Source: a virus. Taken from it: a stretch of 23,300 nucleotides of DNA. Below, piece by piece: positions 11,261 through 23,300 of this stretch; the first letter of the stretch is position 1, and the number at the start of each line of letters is the position of its first letter. The stretch covers positions 1 to 23,300 of IMG/VR virus record IMGVR_UViG_3300037336_000472; one strand, given 5' to 3'. Below the pieces are notes generated by a model. The model saw only the letters and a list, made by a program, of their open reading frames with translations, made no database searches and was not told the origin of the DNA. The translations under genes and the position numbers were made by a program.

Positions 11261-11718
11261 TTGGCTCCCTCCGGCGCGTGCAATTCATCGAGGATGCGGT
11301 TTGCGATCTGACCCACGTTGACGACGATGCATGGGCTTTCGTTTGGTGAGATCAAGATGTCCCCGATGTTGGCGAGTTGAACAAACTCGCAACGGCTTTC
11401 TTTTTTGCACCGATCTTCAAACCCATAGATCAACCAGACCACCCCGGTGCAATCGCCCGGCTGATCGACGCTGGTGCGCAGATATTGCAACAGGTGGTCC
11501 TGCACATACCGAAACGCGATTGATGGCCCGAGGCCGATGTTGCGCAAGTCCTGTGCCACGGCAATGGCCACCACGTCTCGCCAGCTATACCAGCGCTCCT
11601 TTCCGGGCTCGGGGGTGTGCTCCGGGCAAAAACCGTCGCGTGATATGGCCTGGTTCAGATCACCGCGCGGGATCGGGATCGCCTGCACCAGATCGCCCAC
11701 TCGCCAGCGCATGTTCAT
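11257..11718 (-). CDS. Unknown protein, possible MerR-like HTH N-terminus
   Basis: 153 residues, ATGA overlaps on both sides. The first 70 residues (MRWRVGDLVQAIPIPRGDLNQAISRDGFCPEHTPEPGKERWYSWRDVVAIAVAQDLRNIGLGPSIAFRYV) look like a MerR-type helix-turn-helix with the usual tyrosine/tryptophan-DVV segment after the wing. The C-terminal half is a beta-rich domain of unknown type (GVVWLIYGF, LANIGDILISPNESPCIVVNVGQIANRILDEL). It may regulate the operon or guide a methyltransferase; neither can be shown. MerR-like assignment is tentative. Confidence 0.5.
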   Translation of the reverse strand: MNMRWRVGDLVQAIPIPRGDLNQAISRDGFCPEHTPEPGKERWYSWRDVVAIAVAQDLRNIGLGPSIAFRYVQDHLLQYLRTSVDQPGDCTGVVWLIYGFEDRCKKESRCEFVQLANIGDILISPNESPCIVVNVGQIANRILDELHAPEGAK

Positions 11719-13073
11719 TCCGCCGTTCCTTCCAATTCATCAACGGTCACGCCTTTGCCCTCGCGCCGTGCTACCTTCCCCGTCGCAATCTCCCACCGTC
11801 GCACGGCGACATCACAATAGACCGGGTCCAATTCCATCGCGAAGCATCGCCGTCCGCTGCGTTCGGCAGCGACCAACTGGGTGCCAGAGCCGCAGAACGG
11901 CTCATAGATCAGGTCGCCGGGGTCTGAGAACGCCGTCAGCACTGCCTCGACCAGTGCAACCGGGAACACGGCCGGGTGCGATCCTGCCGCGCCCAGACCG
12001 CCCTTGTGGCGCATGATGCGTAACACGGAGTCCGGTATGCGGTGGCTTTGGATCGTATTGCCGGTTCCGGTTTTAGCATGGACGATGCCGTCGGCCCCGC
12101 GCAGACCACCGCCGCCAAGGGTTTCGCCCGCGTGTTTGGACGGGACGGTCTTGTGCGGTTTGCGGGGCGCGCGGTTGAAGTGGAAAATGAACTCGTGCGA
12201 CGGGGCCAGGCGGCCGTTCCAGTCGCCTGGCAGGCCCGGCCCCTGATCCCAGACATACCAGCCAAAGCGTCGCCAGCCAGAGGTGCGCATCCATTCCACC
12301 CATCCTTCCCAATAGGGCTGCCATTCACTGTCGCGGTGCACGAGGCCGAGGTTGACCAGCAGTTGGGCATCGTCGGTGATCGGGGCTGCGGCAAACACGC
12401 CTTGCATCAGCGCATCCCAATCGCCAACCTTTTCCTTGGCCGCGCCGTAGTCGCGCTGCTGGGCATACGGTGGCGAGGTGAACATCAGCGTGGCGGTTTC
12501 ACCCTGCATCAGCTTGGCGACGGCGGCGGCATCAGTCGCATCGCCGCAGCAGAGCCGGTGTTTGCCCAGCGCCCAGATATCGCCCGGGCGGGTGATAGGT
12601 TCGGCGGGCGGGTCGGGGATCGTATCGGCCGCATCGTCGGAAATCGTTGGGCGGTCATCGGCGTCTGCCAGCAGGGCGTCCAGTTCATCTTCGGGGATCC
12701 CGATCAGGCCGAGGTCGAAATCCTCGGCCAGCAGGGCCTGCAATTCCTGCAAGAGCAGCGCTTCATCCCAGCCGCCCAGCTCGGTTAACTTATTGTCAGC
12801 GATGCGATAAGCCCGGCGCTGCGCCTCGGTCAAATGGCTCAGCACGATGACCGGAGCCTCGGTCAGGCCAAGATGGTCGGCGGCCAGGACACGGCCATGA
12901 CCCGCGATCAACTCGCCGTCCTCGGCCACAAGGCAGGGCACAGTCCAGCCGAACTCGGCCATGCTGGCAGCGATCTTCGCCACCTGAGTGGCATCATGGG
13001 TCTTGGCGTTGCGGGCGTAGGGTTTGAGGCGGGCGAGGGGCCAGTGCTCGATCCGGTCGGGCTGCATCATCAT
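11715..13073 (-). CDS. ParB-domain DNA methyltransferase (TSPPY type)
   Basis: 452 residues from ATG 13073 (ATGA overlap with the gene before; the open frame extends upstream inside that gene). Residues 1-110 are a ParB/sulfiredoxin-like domain (DGELIAGHGR, residues 52-61; RRAYRIADNKLTEL). The methyltransferase follows, with catalytic motif TSPPY (199-203) before the AdoMet motif EPFCGSGTQLVAAERSGRRC (from 391). This order makes it a beta-class amino-methyltransferase (N6-adenine or N4-cytosine). Phages use such enzymes to protect their DNA from restriction. No restriction gene is nearby, so it is probably an orphan. Its ParB part is very similar to that of the second methyltransferase of the operon. 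Confidence 0.88.
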   Translation of the reverse strand: MMMQPDRIEHWPLARLKPYARNAKTHDATQVAKIAASMAEFGWTVPCLVAEDGELIAGHGRVLAADHLGLTEAPVIVLSHLTEAQRRAYRIADNKLTELGGWDEALLLQELQALLAEDFDLGLIGIPEDELDALLADADDRPTISDDAADTIPDPPAEPITRPGDIWALGKHRLCCGDATDAAAVAKLMQGETATLMFTSPPYAQQRDYGAAKEKVGDWDALMQGVFAAAPITDDAQLLVNLGLVHRDSEWQPYWEGWVEWMRTSGWRRFGWYVWDQGPGLPGDWNGRLAPSHEFIFHFNRAPRKPHKTVPSKHAGETLGGGGLRGADGIVHAKTGTGNTIQSHRIPDSVLRIMRHKGGLGAAGSHPAVFPVALVEAVLTAFSDPGDLIYEPFCGSGTQLVAAERSGRRCFAMELDPVYCDVAVRRWEIATGKVARREGKGVTVDELEGTAE

Positions 13074-13582
13074 TGCGCGGGTCCGGTCAAGGGCGTGTAG
13101 ACCACCAACGTGGTTGTGCCGGGAAGCCACCAGCTTGGGAAATCCTCCGGCCAAGTGGTTTGCAGACCTTTCAATTCCGCAAACGCAGCGATGTCCTGCC
13201 GTTTGGCGGCATCAAAGGTGCCATAGAGATGTGCGGCGACGGCGCATGCCATCCGGTCCTTGCGATAGTAGAACGGATGATCAACCAGTTCCCGTGACCA
13301 GGGTTCAGCGTAGTAACCGCGGCCGTCGAACAGACCGCGCCGCGCCAGCACCGCCGCAGTAAAGTCGGACCGGGACAAGGCCCAGCCACGGGTCGCGCCA
13401 AACAGCACCGCAAGTCGTTGCTGCACGGTGCGCAGATCCTGTTGCAGGGCGTTCAGGCGCAGGACGGATTTGGTCCCTGCGATCATGGCGCGCTTGTCGG
13501 CAATGGCGCTGATCAGGATACTGATCTCCATTGCGCTTGGGCCGGTGATGGTGCCAGGCAATTTGGATTTTGCGTTGTTCAT
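13070..13582 (-). CDS. Unknown protein between the two methyltransferase genes
   Basis: 170 residues, joined to both neighbours by ATGA overlaps. The N-terminal half is helical (EISILISAIADKRAMIAGTKSVLRLNALQQDLRTVQQRLAVLFGATRGW) and the second half has aromatic-rich segments (AEPWSRELVDHPFYYRKDRMACAVAAHLYG, TWPEDFPSWWLPGTTTLVVYTP). No membrane segment or known catalytic motif. Its fixed position between two paralogous methyltransferases suggests a role in DNA modification or in the same anti-restriction function, but this is inference from context only. Confidence 0.6.
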   Translation of the reverse strand: MNNAKSKLPGTITGPSAMEISILISAIADKRAMIAGTKSVLRLNALQQDLRTVQQRLAVLFGATRGWALSRSDFTAAVLARRGLFDGRGYYAEPWSRELVDHPFYYRKDRMACAVAAHLYGTFDAAKRQDIAAFAELKGLQTTWPEDFPSWWLPGTTTLVVYTPLTGPAQ

Positions 13583-14841
13583 GCCGCCAGCCTCTTGACC
13601 TTCAGGTCGGCGAAGGTTTCGCCGGTGTCTGCCAGCACGGCATTGGCGCCGGTGAATTGCTGCCAGCGCTCAACGGCCACATCGACATAAGCCGGGTTCA
13701 ACTCGATCCCGAAGCAAACGCGCCCGGTGGTTTCCGCCGCGATCAGCGTCGTGCCCGATCCCATGAAGGGTTCATACACCGCCTGACCGGGGTTGGAATT
13801 GTTCAGCATCGGGCGGCGCATGCACTCGACCGGCTTCTGGGTGCTGTGGATGGTGGTAGCGTCTTGGTCCTTGTTGGCGATCTTCCAAAGCGTGGTCTGC
13901 TTGCGGTCGCCCGCCCAGTGGCCCTTGCCGGTCTTTTTGACGGCATACCAGCAGGGTTCATGTTGCCAGTGGTAATCGCCACGGCTGAAAACGAGACTGT
14001 CCTTGGCCCAGATGATCTGCGACCGAACGTTGAAGCCTACCGCCATGAGGCTCTCGGCCACCTCTGCCGCGTGCAGCGCACCGTGCCAGACATAGGCGAC
14101 ATCGCCGGGGAACAGCGCCCAAGCCTCGCGCCAGTCGGCCCGGTCGTCGTTCAGCACAAGGCCGGTGCGCTTGGTCTTCGCCGCGCCCGTCTGGTTGCGC
14201 CAGGAGGGATCGTATTCGACTCCATAGGGCGGGTCGGTCACCATCAGCAGGGGGCGAACATCACCGAGCAACCGCCCGACCACATCAGCGGAGGTGCTGT
14301 CGCCGCAGATCAACCGGTGTGATCCCAGCTGCCAGAGGTCACCCGCAACCGACACCGGCGTGACCGGCGGTTCGGGAATGTCGTCTTCGCCCTCAACCGG
14401 CCCGTCGCCGCCCAGCGCATCTGGATCCCGCAACAGCGCATCCAGATCTTCGTCGGTGATCCCGAGCAGCGACAGGTCGAAATCCTCGGCCAGCAGCCCC
14501 GCAATCTCGTCGCGCAGCATCGCCTCGTCCCATTCGCCCAGCTCGGTTAATTTATTGTCGGCGATGCGATAGGCGCGGCGTTCGGCCTCGTCGAGGTGGC
14601 TGAGCCGGATCACCGGCACATCCTTCAGCCCCAGCATTGCCGCCGCCAGCACGCGGCCATGCCCGGCAATCAGCTCGCCGTCGTCAGCTACCATGCAGGG
14701 CACGGTCCAGCCAAACTTGGCCATGCTGGCCGCGATCTTGGCCACCTGATCGGTGCCGTGGATCTTCGCGTTGCGGGCATAGGGGCGCAGCCGGTCGAGA
14801 GGCCAAGTCTCGATCTGGCTCGGTGCGAAGACCAGGTCCAT
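13579..14841 (-). CDS. ParB-domain DNA methyltransferase (DPPYG type)
   Basis: 420 residues from ATG 14841 (MDLVFAPSQIETWPLDRL). The open frame extends to 14967, but that part would include a terminator hairpin, so the later start is better. ParB-like domain at 10-110 (DGELIAGHGR 54-63), catalytic DPPYGVEYD (from 203), AdoMet motif YEPFMGSGTTLIAAE (356-370). DPPY points to N6-adenine methylation, beta class. It is the first gene of the operon. The ParB part is nearly the same as in the other enzyme while the target-recognition parts differ, so the two probably methylate different sequences. Confidence 0.88.
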   Translation of the reverse strand: MDLVFAPSQIETWPLDRLRPYARNAKIHGTDQVAKIAASMAKFGWTVPCMVADDGELIAGHGRVLAAAMLGLKDVPVIRLSHLDEAERRAYRIADNKLTELGEWDEAMLRDEIAGLLAEDFDLSLLGITDEDLDALLRDPDALGGDGPVEGEDDIPEPPVTPVSVAGDLWQLGSHRLICGDSTSADVVGRLLGDVRPLLMVTDPPYGVEYDPSWRNQTGAAKTKRTGLVLNDDRADWREAWALFPGDVAYVWHGALHAAEVAESLMAVGFNVRSQIIWAKDSLVFSRGDYHWQHEPCWYAVKKTGKGHWAGDRKQTTLWKIANKDQDATTIHSTQKPVECMRRPMLNNSNPGQAVYEPFMGSGTTLIAAETTGRVCFGIELNPAYVDVAVERWQQFTGANAVLADTGETFADLKVKRLAA

Positions 14842-14928
14842 GGGGCGGTTCTCATTTGGGGCAGGGCGGACGTACCAACGCGCGCGGGCAACATGGCCAG
14901 CGACAGGATCGGCATCCGCGATGTGGGG

Positions 14929-14964
14929 AAAACAAAAACGCCCGCGAGGTTTATCCTCCGGGCG
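14929..14964 (-). terminator. Intrinsic terminator / attenuator upstream of methyltransferase operon
   Basis: On the minus strand a GC stem (CGCCCG-GAGG, loop ATAAA, CCTC-G-CGGGCG, one bulged base; 14964-14939) is followed at once by TTTTTGTTTT (14938-14929). This is a full intrinsic terminator lying 87 bases before the first methyltransferase ATG. On the plus strand the same stem is followed by CAATTTTT, so it may also work weakly in the other direction. Confidence 0.7.
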
Positions 14965-14982
14965 CAATTTTTCAATGATCTA

Positions 14983-16517: not shown

Positions 16518-17177
16518 TTATCTGGCTCTCCAAGGTTTCACCTTCGGCATCACCCCTAACACCTCCACCTCCCGCAACATGCCGCCCGCCATCAGCCCAT
16601 CGCGCACCCAGTCCAGTGCTTGCCACCAATCCTCGTAGCCGCGCCGGGCGGAGGTGATCTGTTCCGGATGCGGCCGCCAGGTTACCGGACAGGCCCGCAC
16701 TTCGATTGTACGCCATTTGCCACTAACCAGTACTCTTTCGGTGCCGACAACGACGCTGACGGCACGATCGCCGTGGCGGTTGCGCTTCATATCAACCGGC
16801 ACGCAGCGTGGCACGACGCTAGGCATCCAGTCTGGCGTTGTGCCCGCCCGCGCCATTTCGGCCACGCTGATCGCCATACGGATGCCGCCGAGGCTGTCAG
16901 GCATCCCCGCTACTGTGGCGGCGATCACCTCTGCGTCAGCGTGGGTGTAACTGCCCATCTTGTGTTGGCCGCCGTCGACCTTGCAGCCCAGCGCTGCGCG
17001 TTGCAGCAGGATGAATTCGAAGCCAAAGCTATAGCCTTCCTCGGCCGCGTCCTTTGGTGGTGGCAGTTCCAGCTGCGCTTGTTCAACCCGAAACGCCCAT
17101 TCCAGCAACGCTTGCACGCCCAGCGCGCGTTTCACCGTTGCGCCGCCCGCGCGGCCAATCCGTCCCTGCATGCTCAT
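16518..17177 (-). CDS. Unknown phage protein, last gene of early operon
   Basis: 219 residues; ATG 17177 (or ATG 17171, MQGRIG) lies twelve bases after the methyltransferase stop, with a weak ribosome site. It contains a soluble mixed fold: an N-terminal helix (KRALGVQALLEWAFRVEQAQLEL), GYSFGFEFILLQRAALGCKVDGG, then HADAEVIAATVAGMP and a C-terminal WWQALDWVRDGLMAGG. No known motif and no membrane segment. Being the last gene of the replication/modification operon suggests a DNA-related or regulatory role, for example like the antiterminators and Q-type proteins often found there, but nothing in the sequence proves it. Confidence 0.6.
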   Translation of the reverse strand: MSMQGRIGRAGGATVKRALGVQALLEWAFRVEQAQLELPPPKDAAEEGYSFGFEFILLQRAALGCKVDGGQHKMGSYTHADAEVIAATVAGMPDSLGGIRMAISVAEMARAGTTPDWMPSVVPRCVPVDMKRNRHGDRAVSVVVGTERVLVSGKWRTIEVRACPVTWRPHPEQITSARRGYEDWWQALDWVRDGLMAGGMLREVEVLGVMPKVKPWRAR

Positions 17178-17189
17178 GGCTGCAATCTT

Positions 17190-18347
17190 TCAAAGAGGGT
17201 CATCTGCGCTGGGCCTTCCGGCCCATCCGTCGGCCGCCAGATCCACGGGCCCGAGGCCATGGGCAGCCGCGAGAGTGCGCCATGCATGTGCTGCTGCCAG
17301 TGGATGAACTCCGTTGCCGAGCAGGCGCAAAGCGCGTGCCCGATGGGCCAGCCCATCAGCCATCCGACGAAGATCGAATTGAGCCGCCGCCGTGCCCGGG
17401 CCTTCAGGATCCGCCGCGAGACGACGCGCCCATGCGAGGCAATCATCGAAGCCCAAAGCGGGCGCGAGATCGGAGCGTGCGGCAAGGACCGCCGCCCATC
17501 CAGCGTGATCGCCGGGGCCGGGTGGGTGAAGCCCTGTTCTGCACGGTAGTGCAGGATATCCATCCGGGATTTGCCATCCGCCCGCGTCACACTGGCTTCG
17601 CTCGATCCCTTCCAGTTCTGTGCGGCCGGTGTCGGCCATTGCGCCGCCTGCGCTGGCAGGGGTGGCATTCCGCCCGAGCCATAACTCTGCCCCGGCCCGC
17701 CCTTCGCGCCATCCGTCGCTTTCGGCGTCGACCAGTTCGTGATGCCCAGCGCCAGCGCTTCCGCCTTCCGCGTGAAGTCGCTGTTCCCGGCTGGGTTGTA
17801 GGTTCCCGTTCCAGGATGCAGGCTCATCGGTGTGGGCCAGGATGAAGATGCGGAGCCGCTGGTGCGGCGCGCCAACTTCTGCCGCACTGAGCAGGCCCGC
17901 CGCAGGCGTGTAGCCCATGTCCCAAAGCTCTCGCAGCACGGTTTCAAGGCCGAGACTGACGTGGCCCGAGACGTTTTCAAGGAAAACCCACTCGGGCCCA
18001 CATTCCCGGATGACCCGGGCGACCTCTGGCCAGAGGTGGCGTGGATCGTCGGCGCCGCCGCGTTTGCCTGCGGCGCTGAAGGGCTGACAGGGGTATCCTG
18101 CCAGCACAGTGTCGAAGGCCCCGCGGAAGGGGCGTGCGTCAAAGCTGCGCAGGTCATCCCAGATTGGTGCGGGGGCGAAATACCCTGCGCGCTGGGCTGC
18201 GATGAGCACCGCCCTTGGCCAGTCTGCCCATTCGACGAAAGTGCGGGTGTGATAGCCGGGTTCGGCGAGCATGAGGCCCAGATCCAAACCTCCGCCGCCT
18301 GCGCAGAGGGACAATCCGTGCCGGGGACGTGGCACCAAGCCATTCAC
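17190..18347 (-). CDS. DNA (cytosine-5) methyltransferase
   Basis: 385 residues, GTG start at 18347 overlapping the replication-gene stop as GTGA. C5-methyltransferase motifs in order: I LSLCAGGGGLDLGL (12-25), IV GYPCQPFSAAGKRGG with catalytic Cys87, VI ENVSGH (124-129), VIII QRLRIFILA (163-171), and X RLLGNGVHPLAAAHA near the C-terminus. Residues about 175-320 form the variable target-recognition region. The enzyme methylates cytosine at C5 with AdoMet. No restriction gene is adjacent, so it is most likely a phage orphan that protects replicated DNA. A 389-codon frame overlaps almost exactly on the same strand but shows none of these motifs. Confidence 0.92.
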   Translation of the reverse strand: MNGLVPRPRHGLSLCAGGGGLDLGLMLAEPGYHTRTFVEWADWPRAVLIAAQRAGYFAPAPIWDDLRSFDARPFRGAFDTVLAGYPCQPFSAAGKRGGADDPRHLWPEVARVIRECGPEWVFLENVSGHVSLGLETVLRELWDMGYTPAAGLLSAAEVGAPHQRLRIFILAHTDEPASWNGNLQPSREQRLHAEGGSAGAGHHELVDAESDGWREGRAGAELWLGRNATPASAGGAMADTGRTELEGIERSQCDAGGWQIPDGYPALPCRTGLHPPGPGDHAGWAAVLAARSDLAPALGFDDCLAWARRLAADPEGPGTAAAQFDLRRMADGLAHRARALRLLGNGVHPLAAAHAWRTLAAAHGLGPVDLAADGWAGRPSADDPL

Positions 18348-19378
18348 CGCACCCCCCGCTCACGCAGCTGTTCCGGGGTCACGAGACCCCGACCCAGCAT
18401 GGCATCGCGCATGGTGTTGTTGATTGCGCTGACGGGCAGGTAGCGATCAGAATTGATGATCTCGGCATAAAACACCGGCAGATCGACGATGGTCTTCGCC
18501 GCTGGCGTCTGATCCGTCTTGCGCTTGCGGCGCTTCCGACCTGCATCATCCGTCTTGCGCTGGGCAGCACGCTGCATGGCGCGGTCCAGCGCCTTTGGCC
18601 CATCGGGTGGTTCGGGATGATCGTGGCGTGTGTCCATCGCCGCCGTGATGATCTCTGCCTCGGTCAGCCCCAGCTCGGTGCGCCAACGCTGGATGTGCAG
18701 CCGGGGTGGCCAACCTTGCCACCAGCCGGGCAGGGCAACTGGATCCAATCCCAGCGTCGAAATCAGTTCTGCAAAGAAATAATCAAAATCGGAATCTCGC
18801 GCTTGCGCATCCTCCTCCTCCTTTACTGGTTTACTTAAGGGTTCTCTTACAAGGTTAGTGTCCCAATTTGAGACACGGGAATCGCTGTTTTTGAGACACG
18901 GGATTGCGTCAAAATGAGACACGGGCCCGTGTTCCAGATCGAGACACGGTGTTTGCGATATTTCTTGCGCCAACCCATTGTCAGAACGCATTTTTTCCGC
19001 ATTTGTGCCGTGTCCCAAATTAGGACACGGGATATCGGGGTCGAATGGTGCGTCGCCGCCTGTTTCTTGCGGGTTCTCGCCGCCCGGTCCTGGTGGTTTA
19101 AAACATGGCTCGAAGCTGAGGAGGTACCGTGTCGGTCGATGCTGGCCTGTACGCAGATCGACATTCCGGATCCGCCGGATAAGACCGCGCGCCTCCAGAT
19201 CATCGAGATGGCGGTTCAGGGTGGCGCGCCCGATTTCGCAATCATGCGCCAACCGCACCTGTGAGGGGAAGCAGCCGTAATCAGGATTGAACCGATCACA
19301 CAGATGCCAGAGCAATATTTTTGTGGTGGGTTTTAACCCACGCTGCTGGATGGCCCAGTTGGTGGCGGCATGGCTCAT
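18344..19378 (-). CDS. HTH replication protein (lambda O-like layout)
   Basis: 344 residues; ATG 19378 overlaps the nuclease stop (ATGA). Residues about 15-72 form a winged helix (LKPTTKILLWHLCDRF, CFPSQVRLAHDCEIGRATLNRHLDDLEARGLIRRI) of the HTH_36 type found in phage and plasmid replication initiators. A long linker (about 95-190) is coded by an iteron array. The C-terminal part has LGLDPVALPGWWQGWPPRLHIQRWRTELGLTEAEII, a strongly basic segment (RKRRKRKTDQ), and a terminal helix. Lambda O has the same plan: N-terminal origin binding, origin inside the gene, C-terminal helicase-loader contact. No helicase loader is recognised nearby, so host DnaB recruitment is inferred. Confidence 0.7.
   Translation of the reverse strand: MSHAATNWAIQQRGLKPTTKILLWHLCDRFNPDYGCFPSQVRLAHDCEIGRATLNRHLDDLEARGLIRRIRNVDLRTGQHRPTRYLLSFEPCFKPPGPGGENPQETGGDAPFDPDIPCPNLGHGTNAEKMRSDNGLAQEISQTPCLDLEHGPVSHFDAIPCLKNSDSRVSNWDTNLVREPLSKPVKEEEDAQARDSDFDYFFAELISTLGLDPVALPGWWQGWPPRLHIQRWRTELGLTEAEIITAAMDTRHDHPEPPDGPKALDRAMQRAAQRKTDDAGRKRRKRKTDQTPAAKTIVDLPVFYAEIINSDRYLPVSAINNTMRDAMLGRGLVTPEQLRERGVR
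18858..19030. repeat. Iteron array, putative replication origin
   Basis: Direct copies of (T/C)GAGACACGG have their GACACGG cores at 18872, 18895, 18918 and 18943, giving steps of 23, 23 and 25 bases. A fifth site is the 8-bp inverted repeat CCGTGTCC-N7-GGACACGG at 19008-19030, and partly matching inverted halves sit at 18858 (GTGTC) and 18927 (CCGTGT). The 23-base step is not a multiple of three, so the copies are read in different frames and the repeat must be kept at DNA level. A+T-rich stretches lie between copies 4 and 5 (18951-19004) and beyond copy 1. This layout resembles the lambda origin inside gene O. Confidence 0.68.
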
Positions 19379-19800
19379 GGCTGGGCCCTCCGCGTTGTGC
19401 AGGTGGCTTGGCGCTGGCCTGTATCTTGTAGCACCACGCGACTGGTAAGCCCGTGATCGGCCAGCGCGCCCAGCGCCTCGTCGAGGCTGCGCACCAGCGC
19501 CCAGCCAAAGCCCTGCGCTTGCACGGTATCGCGAAACGCTTCCTGCGCTGGGCTGAGCCGCCCCTTGAGGGATTTCAGTTCCAGAAACAGCACGCGCCCA
19601 TTGCTGAGAACCAGCAAATCCGCAAAGCCAGCATGTACGCCCATACCAACCAGGATCGCTTGGCGCTTGGAGCCGCGTGGGCCTGCTTCGGTCACTTCAT
19701 TGGCGCAGTGATGGATGATGGTGTCTTTGGGCAGTGCAAAGCGGAGCGCTATCACAACAGCGCGCTGCAGATCTGCCTCCGGTGTCCCGCGCCGCTTCAT
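19375..19800 (-). CDS. VRR-NUC domain nuclease
   Basis: 141 residues, ATGA overlaps on both sides. PD-(D/E)XK-type motifs of the VRR-NUC family are visible: Glu8 in the first helix, GVHAGFADLLVL with Asp61, FLELKS with Glu74 and Lys76, then RLSPAQEAF. Such small phage enzymes act on DNA branches or recombination intermediates and are often next to replication genes. Here it stands directly before the replication protein, suggesting processing of replication forks or junctions. The full set of catalytic residues is present, and the length is typical for stand-alone phage versions. Confidence 0.85.
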   Translation of the reverse strand: MKRRGTPEADLQRAVVIALRFALPKDTIIHHCANEVTEAGPRGSKRQAILVGMGVHAGFADLLVLSNGRVLFLELKSLKGRLSPAQEAFRDTVQAQGFGWALVRSLDEALGALADHGLTSRVVLQDTGQRQATCTTRRAQP

Positions 19801-20066
19801 AGGTGATCCTCCCCACCGCGAGACCGGTGATCGTCACGTCTGGGCGATTTGGCATCGAGGATGACCAGCAAGATCCGTGCGTCCTTGCATTCCTCGGGTG
19901 TCTGGCCGTGCTGCACCAGCACTTTGCAAGCCATGCGCAGGAGGTGATCTGAATGATGCGCCACGTCGGCCACCACGATGCGCGCCTCGCGCAGCCGCTC
20001 TTCAACCCAGTCCAGCCTGGCTTGGTCGTGATTGCGGCGATGACGGAAAGGAAGGGGCGCGCTCAT
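19797..20066 (-). CDS. Small phage protein, unknown
   Basis: 89 residues from ATG 20066, which overlaps the excisionase-like stop (ATGA); the open frame extends further upstream but this start fits the operon. Helical centre (RLDWVEERLREARIVVADVAHHSDHLLRMACKVLVQHGQTPEECKDARILLVILDA) and a basic, His/Arg-rich C-terminus. No known motif. Its tight coupling to a HTH gene and a nuclease suggests an accessory role in early phage functions. Not recognised. Confidence 0.55.
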   Translation of the reverse strand: MSAPLPFRHRRNHDQARLDWVEERLREARIVVADVAHHSDHLLRMACKVLVQHGQTPEECKDARILLVILDAKSPRRDDHRSRGGEDHL

Positions 20067-20308
20067 CGGTGGCCTCCCGCGCGCCGGGGGCTGGGTATTT
20101 CTTGCTGTGTAAGCCAACCCTGCACCGCGTCACGGCGATAATAGACCTTACGCCCAGCGCGCACGCAGGGTGGGCCAAAGCGGAGCCCCTCCCAGCGCCG
20201 CAGGGTCTCGACTGTCACTTCGAGCTCAAGAGCAAGATCGAGACGGCTTATCCAGCCACTCAAGATGCCTACTTTGGTTGATCGCGGGGCTGTTCCTTGT
20301 TGTGTCAT
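20063..20308 (-). CDS. Excisionase / AlpA-like HTH protein
   Basis: 81 residues from ATG 20308, with GGGAG seven bases upstream; the frame extends upstream, but this start has the ribosome site. The central part LSGWISRLDLALELEVTVETLRRWEGLRFGPPCVRAGRKVYYRRDAVQGWLTQQE is a MerR-type HTH_17 domain as in excisionases and AlpA regulators: helix-turn-helix then RKVYYRRDAVQGWL wing. It is the first gene of the early operon, divergent from the integrase gene 599 bases away, the usual place for a protein that directs excision. It could equally act only as a transcription regulator. Confidence 0.72.
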   Translation of the reverse strand: MTQQGTAPRSTKVGILSGWISRLDLALELEVTVETLRRWEGLRFGPPCVRAGRKVYYRRDAVQGWLTQQEIPSPRRAGGHR

Positions 20309-20384
20309 CGTCTGTCTCCCGTTTATCGCCCGACACGGACGGATTGCAGGTCTCAAGAAACGCAGACACGCAGGGGTGGCGGGA

Positions 20385-20429
20385 AGGCAGTGACCGGCGG
20401 TGATGCGCCAAAAGCTTGCCGGTCATTGA
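20385..20429 (-). repeat. Copy 1 of 45-bp inverted repeat (facing early operon)
   Basis: Read on the plus strand: AGGCA then GTGACCGGCGGTGATGCGC, C, AAAAGCTTGCCGGTCATTGA. It matches copy 2 at 43 of 45 positions in inverted orientation. Within it TGACCGGC and GCCGGTCA form an 8-bp inverted pair 19 bases apart. The matching TTTGAGAAAATT follows at 20442-20453 after a length difference of seven bases. Its outer edge is 77 bases from the excisionase-like ATG. Confidence 0.9.
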
Positions 20430-20596
20430 TAGTATTGGGTTTTTGAGAAAATTGACGCCTCGAGGCAGAGACCTCGTGGCTGCAAAATAGATGGGCAGAC
20501 TGGTTGGCGCGTCAGTGCGCACGCTATTTCACGGCTGATTTACAAGATTATGCCGCATTTTATGGGGTTTGGCGGGCATCCACGCGCATTGAGCCA

Positions 20597-20625
20597 ACCG
20601 GCAAGGGGTTCAGACCCTTGCCGGT
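20597..20625. repeat. Central hairpin sharing the GCCGGT word
   Basis: ACCGGCAAGGG - GTTCAGA - CCCTTGCCGGT is a perfect 11-bp inverted repeat. The right half with the following CATTGAT repeats the inner part of the 45-bp arms (CTTGCCGGTCATTGAT). No T-run follows directly. Confidence 0.85.
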
Positions 20626-20783
20626 CATTGATTTAAAACGGAATTTACAAAAAATAGGATGAGTTTGGCGCAGCATTTCTCTGTTTCAACATCGCTGGCA
20701 CTTGTTGCTTGGAGTGTCCTGCATCAGTTTAATGACGAATGCTGTCGTGTAGCCCTCATACTTTTTAATTTTCTCAAATGAAT

Positions 20784-20828
20784 TCAATGACCGGCAAGCT
20801 TTTAGCGCATCACCGCCGGTCACCGCCT
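20784..20828 (+). repeat. Copy 2 of 45-bp inverted repeat (facing integrase)
   Basis: Inverted copy of 20385-20429, differing at two positions. Its outer edge is 80 bases from the integrase ATG at 20908, nearly the same as the 77 bases of copy 1 from the other gene. AATTTTCTCAAA precedes it (20768-20779), matching the segment beyond copy 1. A further GCCGGTC half-site follows at 20832. Confidence 0.9.
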
Positions 20829-20907
20829 AGGTGCCGGTCCAGGAAGCGTGTTTCGCTTGAAAGGTCCGCGAATCTACGCCTGTGTCCGTGGCAGGAGGAG
20901 AGAAAAT

Positions 20908-22161
20908 ATGGTTAAACGTCTGCGATTAAATGACAAAACGGTGAGGGAGCAGATCCCGGAAGAGGATCGGGATTACCAGGTGTTCGACACCGAGATCCGT
21001 GGTCTTTCTATCCGCGTCTTGCGATCTGGCTCGCGATCGTTCGTGCTTGATTACCGCTTCGCAGGACGTCAGCGCCGCATGGCGATTGGGCGCTGGCCGG
21101 AATGGAGTGTGACGGCTGCACGGGAGCGCGCGCGAGATTTGCGTCGAGAAATCGACGAGGGGCGTGATCCGCTGGGCGAACGGGGGGAACTGCGCGAAGC
21201 GCCAAGGTTCAAAGACATGATCGACCGGTATGTGGCCGAGCACGTTCCCCATCTCGCTCCTCTGAATGCTGCGGACCAGCGCGCAATGCTGATCAAGCTT
21301 GTCGCTCCCCATTGGGCCAACAAGCTGGTGGCTGATATTTCCCCGCATGACGTCGCCCAATTGCTCAATGTCATTGCGCAGGGCAGGGCGCGCCCGTCGA
21401 AGCGAAAGCCCAACAACCGTGCACGCAAACTGCAGGGAGCCAAGCCCACGCCGATCCGCGCCAACCGCGTGGGAGGAGTTCTGCGTAAGATGTTCACCCT
21501 TGCGATCAGCTGGGGCTGGCGTGCCGACAATCCGGCAACGGGGTTTAAGAAGCGCGTCGAGAACGCGCGAGAGCGGTTCTTATCGCAAGAAGAAATCGGG
21601 AGGCTGGCCGAAGTGCTGGACGCGGCTGAGGATCAGCGCGCGGCGGGCATCATCCGGATCTGTATGCTGACCGGTAGCCGGGTTGGCGAGGTACGTCAGG
21701 CGCGGTTTGAACAATTCAGCTTAGAATTGGGAAGCTGGTCAAAACCTGCGGCTACCACCAAGCAGCGTAAAATCCACCGAATTCCAATCTCAGCCGATGT
21801 CGCGGCGATCGTGCGCCAGCGTGCACTTGTCGTGCCCAAAGGCAATCCTTGGCTGTTTCCCGGCGATGTTCCCGGTCAACCCGTCAAAGAAACCCGCCGC
21901 TTCTGGATCAATGTGCAACGAGACGCAAAACTGCCCGATGTTCGGATTCATGATCTGCGCCACACCTTTGCATCCTTGTTAGTCAGCGGTGGGGCATCAT
22001 TGGAGATGATCGGAAAGCTGCTGGGCCACAGTCAAGTGCAGACAACCCAGCGTTATGCGCATCTGATGGATTCGCCCCTGCGCGCGGGCGTCGATGCGGT
22101 GGCCGGAATGTTCCGGCCACGTCCCAAAATTGTCCATGATGTTGATCTGAAACGCGCGTGA
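20908..22161 (+). CDS. int: Tyrosine recombinase, P4-type integrase
   Basis: 417 residues from ATG 20908, which has AGGAGGAG upstream; a longer frame from 20848 lacks such a site. The N-terminal DUF4102-like arm-binding domain (DTEIRGLSIRVLRSGSRSFVLDYRFAGRQRRMAIGRWPEWSV) is followed by a SAM-like core-binding part and the catalytic domain: Arg258 in LTGSRVGEVR, Lys in TTKQRKIHRIPIS, His348 and Arg351 in HDLRHTF, His374 in LLGHSQ, and nucleophile Tyr383 in TTQRYAHL. It integrates and excises the element by recombination between attP and attB. All catalytic residues are present. No tRNA gene or clear attachment repeat is found nearby. Confidence 0.94.
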   Translation: MVKRLRLNDKTVREQIPEEDRDYQVFDTEIRGLSIRVLRSGSRSFVLDYRFAGRQRRMAIGRWPEWSVTAARERARDLRREIDEGRDPLGERGELREAPRFKDMIDRYVAEHVPHLAPLNAADQRAMLIKLVAPHWANKLVADISPHDVAQLLNVIAQGRARPSKRKPNNRARKLQGAKPTPIRANRVGGVLRKMFTLAISWGWRADNPATGFKKRVENARERFLSQEEIGRLAEVLDAAEDQRAAGIIRICMLTGSRVGEVRQARFEQFSLELGSWSKPAATTKQRKIHRIPISADVAAIVRQRALVVPKGNPWLFPGDVPGQPVKETRRFWINVQRDAKLPDVRIHDLRHTFASLLVSGGASLEMIGKLLGHSQVQTTQRYAHLMDSPLRAGVDAVAGMFRPRPKIVHDVDLKRA

Positions 22162-22175
22162 CGCAGCCCGCCTGA

Positions 22176-22772
22176 TTAGGCGTCGCCGCGCAGCGCGCGC
22201 CAAAATGGACGCAACCTGCGCCGGATGGTGCTTTCGTCCGGCACCTCACCGTTTTCTGCGACCTCGGCAAACCAATCCTGCATTTCCGCAATCAGCTCGG
22301 TCTGTGTGGTCGGCAGGCCGCGCTCGTGAATGCGCTGGATCATGGCCACATACATCCCTTCCCAATCATAGGGCGACACAGCACCAGCGCCGCCACCGAC
22401 GCGGCGCAACAGATCGTGCTCGTCTTCGAACCGAAGCACATCTTGGCCACTGATCAACAAATCTGAAATTGACACTTCGACACCGCCGACCGGCTCTGTA
22501 ACATAGATCCAGTCCTCAGCATGTTCAGGCTTCACGCGTTGCAGGTTGATAACGGTCGGCCCCGTTCCGTTGCGACGAAAGAGGGGCAGCATATCCATGG
22601 GTGATATTGTGATCTTGCCGGACACCTTGTCCGGGCCGCAGATAGCCAAGGGAATGCCGGTGACAATGTCGAGTTTCCCCTCGCTGGCCCAGCCAGAGAT
22701 ATCGGCGATGGTGCAGCCCCAACGTGTGGCGGTTTCGTGCAAGGTGAAGAATGCTCTTTGTGGCAGTGCCAT
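22176..22772 (-). CDS. Unknown protein, C-terminal winged-helix-like segment
   Basis: 198 residues from ATG 22772 (MALPQRAFFTLHE); in-frame ATG 22808 adds twelve residues and the frame extends to 22883. The N-terminal part TLHETATRWGCTIADISGWASEGKLDIVTGIP looks like a MerR-type HTH, the middle is beta-rich, and the C-terminal segment (GLPTTQTELIAEMQDWFAEVAENGEVPDESTIRRRLRPFWRAL) resembles a helix-turn-helix tail that I recall from proteins of integrated elements. Its stop lies 14 bases past the integrase stop, convergent, with CGCCT-GATT-AGGCG between them. It could belong to the element or to the flanking chromosome. Confidence 0.6.
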   Translation of the reverse strand: MALPQRAFFTLHETATRWGCTIADISGWASEGKLDIVTGIPLAICGPDKVSGKITISPMDMLPLFRRNGTGPTVINLQRVKPEHAEDWIYVTEPVGGVEVSISDLLISGQDVLRFEDEHDLLRRVGGGAGAVSPYDWEGMYVAMIQRIHERGLPTTQTELIAEMQDWFAEVAENGEVPDESTIRRRLRPFWRALRGDA

Positions 22773-23016: not shown

Positions 23017-23300
23017 ATGTCATACTATAAAGCGAAGGAACTATTGAGGTTGGCCAGCATTTCGGCGTCACGCCATCGCGGTGTATGCGTGAAGGATATC
23101 GTCGAAGAATTTCGCGTTAACGAGCGCACTGCCCAGCGCATGCTTTTCGCTTTACAGGAAGTGTTCCCGAGCCTTGCTTATAAAGCAGATAGTGACCGGC
23201 GCAGGTGGTGGAAGCTTCACGACACCGCAATACTCGGCAAGCAGAGCGTTTACGGCCATGAACTGTTTGCCCTCGAAATGGGCATGCGGCGCGCCCGCCG
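23017..23300 (+). CDS. WYL-domain-type transcription regulator, N-terminal part (cut by window edge)
   Basis: ATG 23017 with AAAGGGG upstream; the frame is open to the window end (94 codons). YYKAKELLRLASISASRHRGVCVKDIVEEFRVNERTAQRMLFALQEVFP is a DeoR/YafY-like winged HTH with the segment seen at the start of WYL-domain regulators, and ADSDRRRWWKL matches the wing and linker. The WYL domain itself would be beyond the edge. Such proteins often control defence loci (BrxR- and CapW-like) and sense ligands. Here it is divergent from an unknown gene and lies next to an integrase, fitting an accessory or defence region. Confidence 0.72.
   Translation, partial: MSYYKAKELLRLASISASRHRGVCVKDIVEEFRVNERTAQRMLFALQEVFPSLAYKADSDRRRWWKLHDTAILGKQSVYGHELFALEMGMRRAR

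Follow-up and report, generated by a model that had tools for sequence, protein, structure and literature searches.

The locus raises the question of why one 45-nt sequence stands in inverted copies before two divergent genes, those for an excisionase-like protein and an integrase, and which protein would recognise both copies. The window, namely the whole stretch of 23,300 bases analysed here (IMG/VR virus record IMGVR_UViG_3300037336_000472), contained terminase, portal, replication, and integration genes, indicating a temperate phage, and its relatives were prophages, mostly of Rhodobacterales. The phage is one of marine and soil bacteria, and the prophage group is widespread in Rhodobacterales and other Proteobacteria.

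The xis-like gene (20063-20308, minus strand) encoded a small MerR/excisionase-type wHTH protein (PHROG 66, E = 4.8e-6; weak Pfam MerR matches, under the curated cut-off), and was the first gene in the minus-strand run xis-g4-vrr-rep-methylase. Across a gap of 599 bp between the two start codons (ATG at 20308, minus strand, and at 20908, plus strand), int (20908-22161, plus strand) encoded a tyrosine integrase with an Arm-DNA-bind_3 domain. The uncharacterised phrog_13283 gene (22176-22772, minus strand), whose product is proposed below as the operator-binding regulator, was convergent with int, and the 5' part of a gene for a WYL-domain regulator (23017-23300, plus strand) was cut by the end of the record. 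Elsewhere in the window, a cytosine methylase gene (17174-18347; also 2358-3924 in the relative L084) was covered by two long overlapping frames on the same strand, the second of which was also open in relatives, and two neighbouring paralogues (11715-13154 and 13579-14967) resembled, on reading of their sequences, fusions of a ParB-type domain with a DNA methylase.

Repeat copies in the window

The two copies, R_xis (20385-20429, minus strand) 5' of the xis-like gene and R_int (20784-20828, plus strand) 5' of int, matched as inverted sequences at 43 of 45 positions (96%) with a separation of 354 nt, and their outer edges stood 77 bp (xis) and 80 bp (int) upstream of the respective ATG, as the initial annotation had described. 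The longest inverted arm in the intergenic region (two mismatches at most) was 45 nt, in contrast to a maximum of 15 nt over 60 shuffles, thereby excluding a chance origin. Both copies contained TGACCGGC-N19-GCCGGTCA (at 20391/20418 and 20788/20815), and the homology said to continue inwards was found as a 12-nt extension, TTTGAGAAAATT, at 20442-20453 on the xis side and at 20767-20778 on the int side. In the gene-ward direction, the conserved unit also exceeded the 45-mer (to about 20372 for R_xis), with about 60-75 bp being common to both upstream regions. The third partial copy claimed between the arms was likewise confirmed: M (20596-20634; partial copy at 20617-20634) had a match in direct orientation 202 bp from R_xis and an 11-bp stem (20597-20607 and 20615-20625), and scored as terminator-like but without a T run. 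Only two class-specific sites were present in the 23.3-kb record (profile scores of 53 and 41; the next was 8.8), and a sigma-70 promoter search of the intergenic region recognised none near the sites.

A typical site consisted of an inverted half upstream, about 19 nt, and then gene-ward direct units at spacings of about 8-10 and 18 bp, for which the autocorrelation of tandem units gave modest peaks only (lags 8 and 18). The spacer was identical at 19 of 20 positions between the copies of the window, and the match ran inwards, whereas the corresponding values in ten close relatives were 7-17 of 20. This difference suggested that the near-perfect copies of the window are probably a recent conversion tract, to which both inner extensions probably belong, superimposed on a conserved pair of operators.

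Sites and attachment regions among relatives

The survey yielded 126 loci, dereplicated to 102: 24 with the layout of the window (type A) and 78 with another (type B). Type A has the order rep, vrr, g4, and xis (all leftward), the gap, int (rightward), phrog_13283 (leftward), and, in brackets as it were, WYL (rightward); type B has int (rightward), phrog_13283 (leftward), the same bracketed WYL (rightward), the gap, and then xis, g4, vrr, and rep (all rightward). The layout changed once on the xis and phrog_13283 trees and 14-16 times on the rep and vrr trees; the single change on the former indicated an old rearrangement rather than phase variation, and these data suggest about one inversion event behind the two layouts. 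When positions 18344-22772 of the window were set beside relatives L004-L154, the int-phrog_13283-(WYL) block was inverted relative to xis/rep in most of them, and vrr and rep, next to the int/xis module, were highly mosaic.

A matching site was found before int (about -120 to -60) and before xis (-112 to -50) in nearly all loci of the 102 dereplicated relatives. The copies were inverted in type A, and were direct repeats separated by 2.5-3.5 kb in type B (int, about -100 to -70; xis, about -93 to -63); judged from their positions in the sequence, the copies follow the genes, not the layout. The upstream half of the site was clear in 69 of the 78 xis copies of type B and in 47 of the 78 int copies (about 14 expected in shuffles), and this lower frequency at int argues against an RNA stem as well as against a strict palindrome. 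Of the 24 type A elements, 20 had M as a direct-orientation copy at a distance of 200-203 bp from R_xis, and few type B elements had a recognisable M. Xis leaders of type B (e.g. L108, L109, L134, and L142) had a small GC hairpin just 5' of the ribosome-binding site, with stems that varied but remained complementary.

The sequences of the int and xis sites co-varied across relatives. The mean score between the int and xis sites of the same element was 38.1, versus 16.8 between elements, and 10,000 permutations reached at most 20.7 (102 elements); 101 of the 102 elements exceeded all shuffled controls for int/xis site similarity. On clustering, the xis copies fell into 13 classes and the int copies into 19, and most of the xis-copy classes corresponded to one dominant int-copy class, although not one to one (28/2/1 in the largest, 10/3/2/1 in the second). 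Class 1, that of the window, is TGACCGGC/GCCGGTCA, class 2 (among type A) is GGGTGGC/GCCACCC, and other classes had sequences such as TTCCACC-TTCCGCC-TTCCGG and CAATTCCGGTC. The exact patterns of two site classes, searched in 2.9 million viral contigs, were found only before int or xis of the family of the window. In one type B relative (L200:3955-5290), a deletion fused a truncated int nearly onto xis, with phrog_13283 gone and both operator copies kept, and the L055 contig carried a second int, which was truncated and had a site from a different class (L201:11003-11986; possibly a chimera or a decayed prophage).

In 54 loci, the 3' half of tRNA-Met (CTCATAACCTGAAGG..) flanked the module at its int end. 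Its place and strand were constant within each layout: all 10 type A loci had it past int on the plus strand (2.4-7.1 kb from the int start), and all 44 type B loci had it before int on the minus strand (0.45-5.7 kb). A matching tRNA-Met copy was present at the opposite prophage end in two genomes. Tandem TCAACGCC..TCAACCCG repeats beside the tRNA-Met core were common to most sequences, and conserved GTCAACGCC..GTCAACCCG repeats adjoined the attachment site; the repeats beside the core are likely arm sites. As mapped by sequence, the attachment site is the tRNA-Met end, remote from the int/xis sites (0.4-7 kb from int); since the record of the window ends before the tRNA-Met region, its own attachment site was deduced from relatives. 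An attachment site at the int border of the type B layout was rejected, as the tRNA-Met core is situated beyond this border. Integrated prophages with the layout of the window had an unbroken int-xis region, and the copies were neither at the attachment core nor split between attL and attR.

Prophage PD29, which is on the L148 contig, is given with tRNA-Met and an end at 51,532 in the published list (PMC6536676), and this end was close to the core mapped here. The same list has the L084 prophage (PD47) as intergenic (PMC6536676), at odds with the tRNA-Met remnant found 5.9 kb past its int start. Large serine recombinase genes were observed at or near some tRNA-Met ends (L142:109-1512 and the right end of the same prophage), one frame of which continued into the tRNA remnant. 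Variable cargo genes lay between the int module and tRNA-Met in L075, L076, L082, L084, and L142; some of them resembled, by sequence reading, HipA-like, DUF2326-like, and ImmA/IrrE plus PIN genes.

The initial annotation had offered shared operators, leader elements, paired integrase arm sites, and an invertible segment as explanations. Co-regulation of int and xis by shared operators was supported, since the site was present before both genes in both layouts and the copies co-varied, while the copies following the genes and the attachment site lying elsewhere led us to reject the arm sites and the invertible segment. Paired arm sites, or a part of attP, would suit copies adjoining int and an Int with an arm-binding domain; this is nevertheless very improbable, because attachment occurs at the tRNA-Met end in 54 relatives with different, conserved repeats of its own, integration leaves the int-xis region joined, and the site changed completely between two relatives (L080 and L082, see below) in which Int kept 92% identity. 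In spite of inverted 45-mers 354 bp apart, inversion of the segment between them is close to excluded: a single orientation was found in 15 of 15 aligned close relatives, and 78 of the 102 relatives have direct repeats kilobases apart. An RNA hairpin in both mRNA leaders could explain why the inverted half-sites change on both sides between classes, but appears improbable given that the stem-forming, gene-distal half was often absent at type B int and that two leaders have no need to share sequence. We also regard it as highly improbable that the copies have no common function and are alike by gene conversion only; the spacer and inward match of the window fit such a process, whereas in relatives the spacers diverged while the half-sites stayed matched, and the pattern held over about 13 classes, in either layout, and at kilobase distances.

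Candidate binding proteins

Distances between sites (xis copy) correlated with those between proteins: 0.87 for Xis, 0.87 for phrog_13283, 0.43 for Rep, and 0.30 for VRR, and the all-pairs partial correlation was 0.43 for Xis versus 0.29 for phrog_13283. Site class changed 13-15 times on the int, xis, and phrog_13283 trees (minimum of 12) and 34-35 times on the vrr and rep trees, with the int tree performing as well as that of phrog_13283. Linkage explains part of the correlation between the site and the proteins.

Natural swaps, which span one class boundary (class 1 versus class 2), provided the discrimination between the candidates. Type B classes 10 and 12 gave none because these two classes differ little. 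L080 (class 1) and L082 (class 2) were 92% identical in Int, 89% in Xis, and 55% in phrog_13283, and their sites were unrelated. At the DNA level, int was 80-89%, xis 84%, and phrog_13283 68% identical, and the gap was 66%, versus 64% for shuffled sequences; that is, the intergenic DNA was at the shuffled level despite conserved genes on both sides. The values for a pair of the same class, L080 and L076, were 75% for the gap and 80% for phrog_13283. L181 was found only by the exact class-2 site scan of viral contigs, independently of protein searching. Its Int was nearest to elements of other classes (77-78%, versus 72% for class 2) and its Xis to L080 and L076 (class 1), whereas the class mean of its phrog_13283 was 63% for class 2 versus 50% for class 1; the ten nearest phrog_13283 proteins were all from type A elements with the class-2 site, except L007 and L081, the upstream regions of which were too short for typing. 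In this sequence comparison, phrog_13283 tracked the site in both swaps (L080/L082 and L181), a pattern that may be one of immunity-type co-diversification. Since it changed in step with the site, the phrog_13283 product is the best candidate for the operator binder, and a likely regulator.

Alternatively, the xis-like MerR-type protein itself may be the binder, autoregulating its own promoter and controlling int through the same site, similar to RdfS in ICEMlSym(R7A). Xis had the highest partial correlation with the site, RdfS is an earlier example of an RDF that binds at both promoters (PMC11963761), and tandem direct repeats are the targets of BldC-like proteins (PMC5859096), comparable to the direct units of the site with their spacings of about 8-10 and 18 bp. 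On the other hand, the recognition helix and wing of Xis differed at only 1-2 positions between L080 and L082, L181 combined a class-2 site with a Xis nearest to class-1 elements, and no site-like units were found among the listed tRNA-Met attachment regions, where an excisionase should act. In these two comparisons, the site did not appear to follow the DNA-binding specificity of Xis, as would be expected for a system of the RdfS/TorI type, and we consider Xis unlikely to be the binder. The WYL regulator was also rejected: no WYL homologue was found beside the module in L082, which has the sites, or in other class-2 relatives, making it an unlikely binder.

Turning back to phrog_13283, no curated NCBIfam match was obtained, the Pfam match was sub-threshold only (DUF6922, E = 0.045), and no relatives were found in INPHARED (50,697 annotated phage records). 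An AlphaFold2 model (39 sequences; pLDDT 86, pTM 0.58) predicted an N-terminal winged helix resembling BldC and Xis and a C-terminal three-helix, helix-turn-helix-like domain. The best VIA-align scores included Z 5.8 for a TnsB HTH, 4.9 for BldC, and 4.6 for Pukovnik Xis, all of which were below Z 8 and possibly reflect a generic arrangement; a Foldseek search against PDB and viral models gave no match with E < 0.001, and the E of the MerR/BldC-like fold was above 1. At phrog_13283 itself, we found no copy of the site, and, thus, no sign of autoregulation. We tentatively suggest, at somewhat less than even confidence, that phrog_13283 founds a new two-domain family of phage lysogeny regulators and that its operator specificity diversifies in an immunity-like manner, the operators of 13 or more classes having the same placement at int and at xis.

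Proposed regulation and comparison with known systems

We consider it fairly probable that the repeats are a phage-specific operator before int and before the xis/replication operon, and that one phage protein, with phrog_13283 as the best candidate, binds both. Sequence comparison showed the site and its position at both genes, that it is independent of the layout, that its copies co-vary, that the attachment site is distant, and that phrog_13283 tracks the site in swaps; binding by phrog_13283, repression in the lysogen, and joint release of int and xis are what we infer. One operator copy would serve int and the other the xis/replication operon, with the weaker M 200 bp from the xis copy, and a single phage-encoded DNA-binding protein would occupy both sites. 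Through such shared occupancy, one signal would govern integration as well as excision/early replication. The phrog_13283 product would most likely repress in the lysogen, activation being the alternative, and Int and Xis would be switched on jointly once repression is lost. The operator and the protein may diversify together, like the immunity specificities of other temperate phages.

In function, the putative int/xis operator system would resemble RdfS and immunity-operator systems. In ICEMlSym(R7A), as proposed here, one small wHTH regulator binds near the xis and int promoters and controls both (RdfS/IntS; PMC11963761); however, the RDF is itself the binder there, the site at int lies inside attP, and a consensus motif was not found (PMC11963761), whereas the present phage has near-identical sites and a remote attP, and its best candidate binder is a protein other than Xis. 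IntS/TorI of KplE1 likewise shows tight int control with a link to the excisionase, but int of KplE1 is repressed via attL, which overlaps the int promoter (PMC2951348); the attachment site in the family of the window does not overlap the region upstream of int. Joint diversification of the operator and repressor between related phages is known in the immunity systems of Cluster A mycobacteriophages, which differ in having 20-30 sites across the genome and a characterised repressor (PMC6550527), versus two full sites plus M and an uncharacterised candidate protein here. A predicted winged-helix domain and tandem direct units are reminiscent of the MerR-like BldC, which binds tandem direct repeats (PMC5859096), although phrog_13283 has a second, C-terminal HTH-like domain and the similarity in fold was weak (Z 4.9). 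The Paracoccus tRNA-Met prophages with tyrosine integrases (PMC6536676) include members of this family, and the available portion of that paper does not mention the repeats.

In this phage family, integration and excision appear to be tied to one regulator through duplicated, co-diversifying operators, whereas known designs place int control in attL. Natural swaps single out one uncharacterised protein as the candidate for this regulator, and the many operator classes would offer ready material for studies on the evolution of repressor specificity.
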